This document shows, piece by piece, positions 18,426 to 25,478 of a stretch of 26,654 nucleotides of DNA (position 1 is the first letter of the stretch; each line of letters begins with the position of its first letter). The notes below the pieces were generated by a model that saw only the letters and a list, made by a program, of their open reading frames with translations, had not been told where the DNA came from and did no database searches. The DNA comes from a virus. The translations under genes were made by a program, and so were the position numbers. The stretch lies in the IMG/VR virus record IMGVR_UViG_3300040807_002345, positions 1-26,654 of that record; one strand, 5' to 3'.

Positions 18426-19331
18426 TTAGCTATTCGCTAGATTTTTAAAGTAACTCAGAGTATCATCATCGTCATTCTCCGTTTCAGGAGTATAAGATGG
18501 TTGAGCCTCAGGTTCATTTGCTTCTGGAGCACTCGCTGCAGATCGTACTTCATCCAAAGATACCGCTTCGGCAGTAGTCATTGGAGTACCTGCTTCACCA
18601 AGAACGCGAACCAACTTAGCTTTAAGCTCATCGTATGATTTATAGTTCTTAGGATCTACAAAATCTTGTAGTGAGTAAAGGGTATTGTATACACCTTCCA
18701 ACTTCTCATCATTACCATCATGCAATGGTGTTGCAGATGCGAACTCAGATTTATCGTAGTTACGATAACCTTCAACGTTACGAATCTTCAATTTGAAGTT
18801 AGCACCTTCCCAGAAATCAAAAGGATTTACTGGTTCTTCGTCGGCAAACTGCGGTTGCATCACATCCATAATCTTATCGAAGATCTTCTTACCAAACTTA
18901 TAAAGGAATACCTTACCATTATTAGCTGGGTTAGCGGGATCTTCCACTACCATAATATTAGAAACGTAATGTAGTCTACGTTTACGCTGACGCACAATGT
19001 CCTTATTGGCTTCAATACCAGAGTTCCAAAGTTCTGAGTTCATCTCAGATACAGGATCAGGTTGACCAATAGAAGTCAATGAGTTTTCAATATACCATTG
19101 ACCAGTTGGACCCTTAAACCCGTGATCCCAATACTTAACCCAAGGGAGATCTTCACCTTCAGCAGCAGGAAGGAATCGAATAACGGCATAACCGTTACCA
19201 GATTTATCTACCTCTGGTTTCCAGAAACGATCATCTTGATAAGATTTTTGGGTGGAACCGCCAGCAGTTTCAGCTGCTTGGACTAGTTTAGAAATGTCGG
19301 CAGAGCGCGACTTAAGATTTGCAAAAGACAT
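18426..19331 (-). CDS. gp32: Single-stranded DNA-binding protein gp32
   Basis: 301 aa, the length of T4 gp32. The N-terminus has the basic/Ser cooperativity motif (LKSRSADISKL); the core has YAVIRFLPA, GPTGQWYIEN, HYVSNIMVVEDPANPANNGK and FLYKFGKKIFDKI; the C-terminus is acidic (ETENDDDDTLSYF), as needed to recruit gp59 and other replication proteins. Unlike T4 gp32 there is no cysteine in the whole protein, so the zinc site is gone: T4 has Cys ligands after YIEN, here the sequence is YIENSLTSIGQPDPVSE. His70 remains. It has its own sigma70-like promoter inside the end of gp59 and lies last in the replication block. Confidence 0.95.
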   Translation of the reverse strand: MSFANLKSRSADISKLVQAAETAGGSTQKSYQDDRFWKPEVDKSGNGYAVIRFLPAAEGEDLPWVKYWDHGFKGPTGQWYIENSLTSIGQPDPVSEMNSELWNSGIEANKDIVRQRKRRLHYVSNIMVVEDPANPANNGKVFLYKFGKKIFDKIMDVMQPQFADEEPVNPFDFWEGANFKLKIRNVEGYRNYDKSEFASATPLHDGNDEKLEGVYNTLYSLQDFVDPKNYKSYDELKAKLVRVLGEAGTPMTTAEAVSLDEVRSAASAPEANEPEAQPSYTPETENDDDDTLSYFKNLANS

Positions 19332-19393: not shown

Positions 19394-19422
19394 ATTATAC
19401 ACCATTTTGTTCATGATGTAAA
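19394..19422 (-). promoter_or_regulatory. Sigma70-like promoter of gp32
   Basis: Minus strand: -35 TTTACA (19422-19417), 17-bp spacer, -10 TATAAT (19399-19394). The -35 lies in the last codons of gp59. The leader to the gp32 ATG is about 55 nt. Confidence 0.7.
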
Positions 19423-19998
19423 TACCTTAAGCACAATTTTTTTCATTCTTTCAATATCAACTTGAACGAATGGATCGTACTTTCGGACTTTCAATGAGAT
19501 ATCCGGCCACATAATAGTTTCCGTAATCTCCTTATCAGCTTTATTCATAAAGCCGGTAAGTTTATTTATAATCACTACAGTCTCAAGAGAAATCTCCTCT
19601 TCAAGATATGCAGTGATTATATCAGGATGAGAATTACTTTTGCATTTAAGCATGTCGTCAAAACTTTCATACTGTAAAGACAAATGATTCAAATCCTGTT
19701 CAAAGATATACCCGATTGATTGCATCCTCTTCAGCCAAGATTGATATACATCCTCGGCATTCAACATTTCACCAATCCATTTTGTACCATTAATAAAATG
19801 AGAGGCATACCAACCAATCATCTCAGGTACATCTTTAAACCTTTTAGCCACTTTTGCAAAGTGGTATTTGTCATTGCGCTTCCAAAAGCTTTTTGGATTT
19901 GCGCTTGTTTTAAAATTATATTTAGCGGCATCATAAGTCTTAGACTCAAAGTGAAGTTTTAAAGATTGATAATACCGGTAAGCGTCAAAGGGTTCCAT
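19411..19998 (-). CDS. gp59: Helicase loader gp59
   Basis: 195 aa (T4 gp59 is 217). It begins MEPFDAYRYYQSLKLHF, the hallmark of the family, followed by SFWKRNDKYHFAKVAKRF (about 37-54) and the region ending MIGWYASHFI. gp59 loads the gp41 helicase onto gp32-covered forks. Its place just before gp32 and one base after the gp33 stop (TAG, A, ATG) puts three interacting T4 factors in a row. No separate Shine-Dalgarno is evident, so coupling with gp33 is likely. Confidence 0.92.
   Translation of the reverse strand: MEPFDAYRYYQSLKLHFESKTYDAAKYNFKTSANPKSFWKRNDKYHFAKVAKRFKDVPEMIGWYASHFINGTKWIGEMLNAEDVYQSWLKRMQSIGYIFEQDLNHLSLQYESFDDMLKCKSNSHPDIITAYLEEEISLETVVIINKLTGFMNKADKEITETIMWPDISLKVRKYDPFVQVDIERMKKIVLKVFTS
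19563..19570 (-). promoter_or_regulatory. Possible late promoter for gp32 inside gp59
   Basis: TATAAATA on the minus strand within the gp59 coding region, about 230 nt upstream of gp32. T4 gene 32 also receives late transcription from upstream, but a chance match is possible. Confidence 0.25.
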
Positions 19999-19999
19999 T

Positions 20000-20230
20000 C
20001 TATACTGGCAGCTGATTTGATGTGCCCTCCACTAATTTTAGTTTAACGCATTCTGCTTCTAATTTATCTTTAATTACAGGTGAAATCAATTTGTTAATTT
20101 CACCTGGATCTAATTCTCGGTCTTCGCAGATTTTTAGTATCGCATCCATATATGATAAACTAAAATTTAAAACGTTCTCTTCCACTAAGACTGAAAATTT
20201 CTTTTTTGTTAATATAGTATTTTCAATCAT
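20000..20230 (-). CDS. gp33: Late transcription coactivator gp33
   Basis: 76 aa from the ATG at 20230, one base after the stop of the hydrolase gene; an in-frame ATG at 20263 would overlap that gene by 32 nt without a better ribosome site. The sequence MIENTILTKKKFSVLVEENV, then ICEDRELDPGEINKLISPVIK, matches gp33 of marine T4-like phages, which is shorter than the 112 aa of T4. gp33 bridges RNA polymerase and the gp45 clamp at TATAAATA promoters, several of which are present in this window. It is flanked by gp59, as in other T4 relatives. Confidence 0.82.
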   Translation of the reverse strand: MIENTILTKKKFSVLVEENVLNFSLSYMDAILKICEDRELDPGEINKLISPVIKDKLEAECVKLKLVEGTSNQLPV

Positions 20231-20231
20231 G

Positions 20232-20684
20232 TTATTCCCATCTATAGAAAATGTGGTCATCAATCTGCATAGTCTTAGTTAGGCTATGGCGCCAATTAGG
20301 ATATACTCTATACGTATGATAATGAGTAGATCCTTCTGTCACATCATAACCAGACTCATACATTGATATAGCCTGAATAGCTATGTCAACAGACTGTAGC
20401 CACATTTCTCGGTTAATTGGTACATCGGATAGACCATCACAATACCAGCTAAATTGACACTTATGTCTTTTAGGAAATCCACTTGGATGAGTTGGTCCTT
20501 GGTATACTACTTCACATGGTGTATTTGGGTAGCGATCATCAACTACTCTATTGAGTACCACATGGGCCACTGCCATTTGCCCTAGATGAGATTGATTACG
20601 GGATTCAAAGTAAACATTCTTTGCCACGCATTCAATGTCAACAGGAGATAACGAAGTGATTGCCGCGAATAGTAATTCCTTCAT
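20232..20684 (-). CDS. SleB/CwlJ-like cell wall hydrolase (putative endolysin)
   Basis: 150 aa. This is a Hydrolase_2 (SleB/CwlJ) domain over nearly its full length: VAKNVYFESRNQSHLGQMAV with the likely catalytic E27, HKCQFSWYCDG, then EGSTHYHTYRVYPNW and DDHIFYRW at the C-terminus. The family cleaves peptidoglycan glycan strands. A short hydrophobic start (MKELLFAAITSLS) is too weak to call as a signal peptide. The start codon directly follows the stop of the 372-aa gene, and gp33 follows one base after its own stop. It thus sits in the block driven by a sigma70-like promoter, not in the late arm where lysis genes are expected. Confidence 0.85.
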   Translation of the reverse strand: MKELLFAAITSLSPVDIECVAKNVYFESRNQSHLGQMAVAHVVLNRVVDDRYPNTPCEVVYQGPTHPSGFPKRHKCQFSWYCDGLSDVPINREMWLQSVDIAIQAISMYESGYDVTEGSTHYHTYRVYPNWRHSLTKTMQIDDHIFYRWE

Positions 20685-24486: not shown

Positions 24487-24853
24487 GGAAAGCGGGCCCG
24501 TTCTGTTCCAAGGTGGAGCCCATACCCGTCAGATTATGCCGCTAAAGCGTAACCTGAAGGTGCAAAGTTATCGTTTGCGTTTACTTTGGTTCTTGCGTTT
24601 AAGGTAGCTTGCGCACCTATTCTCCACAGTCTCTAATTAGTACCTGTCGATCCTAATTCGCCCCCATCATAAGCACACTAAAGTCCAAGATATTTAATTC
24701 TTTTCTTTTCTTGTTTTTCAACAAAATTCCGATACCACTTAAATCTTAAAAAGAACTTTTCTATCATAGAACTCTCAGTGTGTTTATGGTGGAGGCGGCG
24801 GGTACCGCCCCCGCGTCCAGTTTACCTTTCGATCTGCTTCATCGAATTATATA
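24487..24853 (-). ncRNA. ssrA: Permuted two-piece tmRNA (ssrA)
   Basis: tmRNA rescues stalled ribosomes and tags the nascent peptide for proteolysis. Here the acceptor half comes first on the minus strand (about 24853-24787), then a 121-nt intervening segment (24786-24666), then the coding half (24665 to about 24487). The coding half begins GGGGGCGAATTAGG and continues ATCGACAGG, the standard tmRNA 5' end. Its first 7 nt pair with CGCCTCC (24797-24791) to form the acceptor stem, including the G3-U70 alanine identity pair; discriminator A and CCA (24789-24787) follow. The T-stem GCGGG/CCCGC is at 24814-24810 and 24802-24798. Segments 24786-24777 and 24679-24670 pair in 9 of 10 positions, closing the intervening loop. 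Outer ends are approximate. Permutation is typical of Alphaproteobacteria; a few other groups also have it. Confidence 0.92.
24534..24578 (-). other. tmRNA tag-peptide reading frame
   Basis: Reading from GCA at 24578 to TAA at 24534-24536 gives ANDNFAPSGYALAA. With the alanine carried by tmRNA the tag would be AANDNFAPSGYALAA. The ANDNFA start is like alphaproteobacterial tags and the ALAA end is the ClpXP degron. The exact resume codon is inferred from the family. Confidence 0.85.
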
Positions 24854-24898: not shown

Positions 24899-24906
24899 TA
24901 TAAATA
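24899..24906 (+). promoter_or_regulatory. T4-type late promoter of the exported-protein cassette
   Basis: TATAAATA, 32 nt before the ATG at 24939; GGAGA precedes that ATG, so this late transcript would have a normal leader. It lies back to back with the tmRNA promoter. Confidence 0.7.
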
Positions 24907-24938: not shown

Positions 24939-25478
24939 ATGCTAAAAAAATTAGTAGCTATTGGTACTATTATGTTTGCAACACATGCATTCGCTGAACC
25001 AATTGTTACAGAGTCTACCAATAATAGTACTATCACGACAGACGGTCGAATGGATACTACTATTAAGCAGCCGCCACCTTCTGCAATTTCTCCTCAGTTT
25101 AGTGGAGGAAATAATAGTGACTTGTGTACTATTGGTGTGGCAGGCGCTGTACAAACACAAATTCTTGGTATCTCAGCAGGTACCACATTTACTGAACAAA
25201 ATTGTATTAGATTAAAAAACGCGAAAACTCTTTATGATATGGGTATGAAAGTTGCAGCTGTTTCTGTAATGTGTCAAGACGAAAAAGTTTTTGATGCGAT
25301 GATGCATGCTGGAACACCTTGTCCTTATAATGGTCAAATTGGCGAAGCTGCAAGATTAGGATGGGAAACCCATGTAGAAGTAACTCGCAAAGAATTAGAA
25401 GAATCGGATAAACTTAGTGTTGAAGAAAAAGCTACTTATGGTCTTGGCGGCCTTGCTGCCTTCCTACTCATATTCTGA
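24939..25478 (+). CDS. Exported protein of unknown function, 179 aa
   Basis: A clear signal peptide, MLKKLVAIGTIMFATHAFA with cleavage before EPIV. The mature part has a low-complexity Thr/Ser stretch, then a core with four cysteines: DLCTIGVAGAV, QNCIRLKNAKTLYDMGMKVA, VMCQDEKVF and AGTPCPYNGQIG. Two disulfides are plausible in the periplasm. The core is familiar from exported proteins of marine T4-like phages, with no known function. The C-terminus is hydrophobic (YGLGGLAAFLLIF) and may anchor it. Late promoter and GGAGA site upstream. The last 62 nt overlap the next gene in another frame. Confidence 0.78.
   Translation: MLKKLVAIGTIMFATHAFAEPIVTESTNNSTITTDGRMDTTIKQPPPSAISPQFSGGNNSDLCTIGVAGAVQTQILGISAGTTFTEQNCIRLKNAKTLYDMGMKVAAVSVMCQDEKVFDAMMHAGTPCPYNGQIGEAARLGWETHVEVTRKELEESDKLSVEEKATYGLGGLAAFLLIF

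Follow-up and report, generated by a model that had tools for sequence, protein, structure and literature searches.

A permuted alpha-type tmRNA gene upstream of gp33, gp59 and gp32 in a marine T4-like phage

The virus record analyzed here, IMGVR_UViG_3300040807_002345 of IMG/VR, is a linear record of 26,654 bases that was taken whole (hereafter, the window), is probably a fragment, and derives from a marine T4-like phage that is presumably lytic. Its minus strand carries a tmRNA gene that, as confirmed by covariance models, is of the permuted (two-piece), alphaproteobacterial type and is apparently intact. We consider it probable that this RNA is expressed early and, acting through the SmpB protein of the host, supplements or replaces the host tmRNA.

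Results

The window encodes an apparently intact permuted tmRNA

The RF01849 (alpha_tmRNA) model, with which the sequence-only reading of this DNA had proposed to check its assignment, matched 24892-24491(-) with 101.3 bits (cut-off 50, E 7e-27), and the RF04321 (tmRNA_permuted) model matched 24847-24534(-) with 111.3 bits (cut-off 47, E 3e-21). Among the lineage models, the alpha model scored 101 bits and the beta model 35 bits, which is under its cut-off, while the cyano model gave no match. These results bear out the phage-encoded permuted alpha-type tmRNA of that reading and add the strand, which it had not given. ARAGORN reported no tmRNA in the window in its standard mode and only odd tRNAs in another mode, so that a check with this program alone would have led to the gene being wrongly dismissed. 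The program recovered 114 of 213 permuted phage tmRNA genes, indicating that surveys based on it undercount two-piece phage tmRNAs. Two independent IMG/VR contigs back the window sequence, L073 with 98.6% identity over 433 nt and L123 with 99% identity over 224 nt, so that both tmRNA halves are spanned, one by each contig.

From 5' to 3', the gene consists of a predicted promoter, an acceptor half with an encoded CCA (24847-24787(-)), a 121-nt intervening segment (24786-24666(-)), and a coding half with the tag (24665-24534(-)), both halves being supported by RF01849 and RF04321. The acceptor half contains one P2 strand, the T arm with the loop GGCGGUA (24814-24798(-)), the acceptor 3' strand CGCCUCC (24797-24791(-)), A73 (24790(-)), and the CCA (24789-24787(-)). 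The coding half contains the acceptor 5' strand GGGGGCG (24665-24659(-)), the D-like/P2 region, the PK1 region, the resume codon, and the tag. The two acceptor strands form all seven pairs across the halves, G3-U70 included, and the order is permuted, with the CCA ending at 24787 and G1 standing at 24665. The tag reading frame runs from a resume Ala codon at 24578 to the stop codon TAA at 24534 (24578-24534(-)) and encodes ANDNFAPSGYALAA, which has a hydrophobic AA end. The 3' part beyond the tag (24533-24491(-)), still within the RF01849 match, carries the conserved AACAGAA at 24507-24501.

The whole precursor folds better than its shuffled counterparts (z -5.5; 0 of 100 shuffles as good), and the intervening segment alone folds better than all of its shuffles (z -3.6). 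This segment, which is closed by the helix UAAACACACU/AGUGUGCUUA, is presumably excised on processing. Thus, the acceptor half ahead of the coding half, the 7-bp stem with G3-U70, the CCA, the tag frame ending in ALAA, and the paired intervening loop were all found as the sequence-only reading had described them.

A sigma-70-type promoter precedes the tmRNA gene

The predicted promoter, TTTACA-17-TGATATAAT with an extended -10 element, lies at 24888-24860(-) and agrees with the extended sigma-70 consensus at 11 of 12 positions, the match being one to consensus only; the gene thus has the promoter-like sequence of its own that had been claimed for it. This promoter is a zero-mismatch match to a motif that occurs five times in the window when up to three mismatches are allowed, compared with 1.2 occurrences expected, and each of the two genes that come next also has a similar TTTACA...GTG-TATAAT promoter ahead of it. 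The other flank of the tmRNA is occupied by a divergent gene (24939-25478), which is preceded by TATAAATA, a T4-type late-promoter-like site (24899-24906(+)) that is a weak pattern by itself, with six such sites in the window compared with 4.0 expected. Taken together, these elements suggest early expression for the tmRNA and late expression for its neighbor. No significant candidate for an intrinsic terminator was seen after the tmRNA gene, and no glutamine riboswitch of the kind present in phage Melnitz was detected near it at E values up to 1.

The pairing of the two halves is conserved among phage relatives

A search of IMG/VR with an acceptor-half pattern yielded at least 119 stretches, and more than 100 two-piece tmRNAs were found in that collection. 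When the candidates were gathered by a finder that does not require acceptor pairing, all seven acceptor pairs were formed in 100 of the 102 distinct candidates. In these 100 phage tmRNAs, the inner three acceptor pairs were formed in 100% of cases, as compared with 31% when the partners were shuffled, and pairs 5 (GC, CG, TA, AT, or TG) and 6 (CG, TA, or AT) covaried. G3-U70 was present in 100 of 100; for most loci U70 had been preset by the collection pattern, whereas G3 was free to vary. The conserved AACAGAA was found in 73 of the 100, as compared with 4.7 in shuffles. For the helix that closes the intervening segment, the mean longest stem in 71 phage tmRNAs was 10.5 bp, as compared with 6.3 +/- 0.2 bp for segments re-paired at random.

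Permuted tmRNAs well over the Rfam cut-off were also seen in the isolates RcXuper, RcRudolph, DSS3P8, vB_EliS-L02, Phosso, and Cp1R7A-A1 (L134-L139), whose GenBank records annotate no tmRNA at that place. In Roseobacter phage DSS3P8 (L136), a match to GOLLD RNA (345-778; 150.7 bits, cut-off 150) lies close upstream of the tmRNA.

The peptide tag is under selection and belongs to a phage class

The window tag, ANDNFAPSGYALAA, belongs to a 14-residue class, ANDNFAP[ST]G[YF]ALAA, which was found in at least 119 viral contigs, in 42 DNA spellings and with 84 distinct tRNA-like domains, and in no true host genome among the 84,980 species genomes searched. The broader pattern ANDNFAPxx[YF]ALAA gave one match in those genomes. 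This lone match, L121, is a T4-like phage contig, as read from its ORFs (clamp loader, sliding clamp, and other T4-like genes), within a metagenome bin labelled Muricauda sp. TMED12, where it apparently sits through a binning error. No known alphaproteobacterial tag for comparison was found in a literature look-up. As far as sequenced species genomes go, the tag is therefore a property of the phages, and it is unlike all genome tags available for matching in this analysis. The proposal that the tag links phage and host does not hold, since a tag not copied from any known host cannot identify the host.

Third codon positions of the tag showed an entropy of 1.3 bits, compared with 0.5-0.7 bits at first and second positions, indicating that the peptide is under purifying selection. 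Tags of 13 and 14 residues all have the same A1, N2, N4, and final AA, an invariance that is partly built in by a tag picker preferring a GCN-AAY start and an AA end, whereas no such bias enters the difference among codon positions in the interior of the tag. Among the unique confident phage tags, 67 of 68 end in AA and 53 of 68 in LAA. On a tree labelled by tag class, 14 changes were counted, compared with 56 in shuffles; the class is thus clustered on the tree, a result from which a single clade does not follow. Unusually long tags of 24-29 residues, such as ANDNVSNVFSFVDFGSLKNYVNEDYALAA and ANANFKPEAFTSIDMSMDSELLAA, were seen in L013, L045, L031, L061, and L062, and several related long tags end in NEDFALAA or NEDYALAA.

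The wide occurrence of this class in viral contigs, with none in a true host genome, is what would be expected of a phage-specific retagging device, in which a tag unlike that of the host leads to another adaptor, another degradation rate, or a protease of the phage's choosing. However, the tags retain an AND-N start and an ALAA ending, as also found at the end of the Escherichia coli tag, so that host ClpXP should still read them. The retained ALAA favors ordinary degradation over retagging, which we regard as unlikely. The redirection of tag degradation suggested by the sequence-only reading likewise found no support: the tags retain their degradable ALAA, and their variation is chiefly synonymous. 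A related idea, that marine alphaproteobacterial phages have in common a tag of their own, ANDNFAP[ST]G[YF]ALAA, which selection maintains across many phages and which would mark proteins made during infection apart from host-tagged ones and give them a different fate, may be entertained tentatively, though we doubt it.

The phage records examined lack SmpB

No SmpB was found in 49 phage records, of which eight are complete isolate genomes; the sole match in that search was to a bacterial MAG. As the window record is a fragment, the genome from which it comes may still have an SmpB gene outside it. The absence of SmpB from these phage records could also be read as that of a partner to be sequestered, the tmRNA being an inhibitor or decoy that draws SmpB from the host tmRNA, a role suggested for mycobacteriophage DS6A, whose RNA is tRNA-like only (PMC4131195, PMC11915505). 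A decoy, however, needs neither the complete tag frame under purifying selection nor the conserved coding half seen here, which makes this role very improbable.

The tmRNA has a conserved place in T4-like phages

The gene content of the window is T4-like, with baseplate wedge proteins and, downstream of the tmRNA on the same strand, genes for a gp33-like late-transcription coactivator (20000-20263(-); PF16805, E 9e-20), a gp59-like helicase loader (19411-19998(-); phrog_269, E 9e-53), and a gp32-like single-strand DNA-binding protein (18426-19331(-); phrog_224, E 3e-119). In T4-like relatives, the tmRNA always lies upstream of gp33-gp59-gp32 on the same strand, and gp32 was downstream and on the same strand, with no exception, in every tmRNA locus showing both. 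Such a conserved place suggests that the gene has long resided in these phages and was not captured recently. Hence, of the alphaproteobacterial origin put forward by the sequence-only reading, capture from an alphaproteobacterium is still likely, but a recent one is not indicated. That the gene is a passive remnant of a host gene left by imprecise prophage excision, tmRNA genes being common integration sites (PMC9004378), is scarcely credible in view of its intact structure, covariation, tag selection, and conserved place, with no sign of an integrase among those window proteins that were scanned and no broken tmRNA copies in L072, L073, and L123 over the parts covered.

The covariance model detected a permuted tmRNA in 6 of 30 gp32-bearing marine phage records, most of them fragments; we used this count over whole records instead of that of a strict finder, which gave one tmRNA among 17 gp32 loci with at least 9 kb upstream. 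The 24 records without a permuted tmRNA suggest that the gene is probably useful but dispensable. In L124, whose gp32 is 84% identical to that of the window, a tmRNA with the 10-residue tag ANDSTYALAA occupies the same place (107-456); replacement by another tmRNA lineage was considered for this locus, where the alpha (98 bits) and beta (92 bits) scores are too near to decide. The tag class was also seen in a second context (L221-L334). There, a cell-wall hydrolase lies upstream in 65 of 67 cases, and in 38 of 43 a relative of the 24939-25478 gene lies downstream in the same orientation; this arrangement suggests that different phage groups have a module in common.

The protein encoded at 24939-25478 has its relatives chiefly in Pelagibacter and Roseobacter phages. 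Judged from this affinity, SAR11 or some other marine alphaproteobacterium is the probable host.

Discussion

Nearly all bacteria rescue stalled ribosomes, and the reason for a lytic phage to have a tmRNA of its own is a matter not yet settled. The reading that we favor, rescue by a phage tmRNA with host SmpB, would proceed as follows. Transcription from the tmRNA's own sigma-70-type promoter would probably begin early; the intervening segment would be excised by enzymes of the host; the two pieces would join by pairing through the acceptor stem and P2; and the host alanyl-tRNA synthetase would charge the RNA through G3-U70. Together with host SmpB, the phage tmRNA would then rescue ribosomes stalled on broken messages. 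In T4 infection, host DNA is degraded and messages are cut. T4-like infections should therefore yield many ribosomes stalled on broken mRNA, increasingly as the host gene is lost, and a phage copy would keep ribosomes free. The tag ANDNFAPSGYALAA would be added to the stalled products and would remain readable by host proteases, and the phage tmRNA would supplement or replace that of the host as destruction of the host DNA and RNA proceeds. The distinct phage tag would allow mass spectrometry to separate phage-tagged from host-tagged peptides in infected cultures, for example with Melnitz, Mosig, or the roseo- and rhodobacter phages.

Comparison with known systems

Two-piece tmRNAs in marine phages, including Melnitz and Mosig, were published in 2022, when ARAGORN gave 53 in phages, all but three of which were marine or aquatic (50 of 53; PMC9004378), and a tmRNA database of 2025 lists 79 sequences from phages, counting every form (PMC11915505). 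Permuted tmRNAs also exist in beta and cyano lineages, and with phage cases already published (PMC9004378, PMC11915505), permutation is not exclusive to the alphaproteobacteria, to which the sequence-only reading had ascribed it.

The Methylophilales phage Melnitz (MZ577097; PMC9004378) shares with the window a permuted alpha-type tmRNA (107 bits with the alpha model; tag ANDNYVPVDYALAA) in an early-promoter context upstream of gp33/gp59/gp32. The two tmRNAs are about 73% identical where alignable, but Melnitz ssrA is followed by a glutamine riboswitch, which the window lacks, and Melnitz infects OM43, which is not an alphaproteobacterium. Its authors proposed that the viral tmRNA serves to maintain the machinery that the phage has hijacked or to recycle protein of the host (PMC9004378). 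The ssrA of Pelagibacter phage Mosig (MT647606), which has a SAR11 host, is likewise permuted and directly upstream of gp33 and gp59, whereas its alpha score is weaker (68 bits) and its predicted tag longer (ANSYAFLNGEDNFALAA). In Mosig (L133), thyX lies two genes after the tmRNA, and in Pelagibacter ubique thyX adjoins the tmRNA (PMC2704228); this proximity in host and phage is possibly a trace of the origin of the gene, or chance. The alphaproteobacterial two-piece tmRNA itself (RF01849; Caulobacter, Pelagibacter) shares the order of the halves, the T-loop region, the acceptor stem, and the 3' AACAGAA region, whereas it is not phage-borne and the 14-residue tag class of the window was not found in host genomes.

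The phage two-piece tmRNA is a kind already known, to which the window gene adds a member. Within the literature searched, three points appear to be new: ARAGORN detects these genes with low sensitivity; the order tmRNA...gp33-gp59-gp32 is fixed in many phages; and a phage-wide tag class is absent from host genomes.
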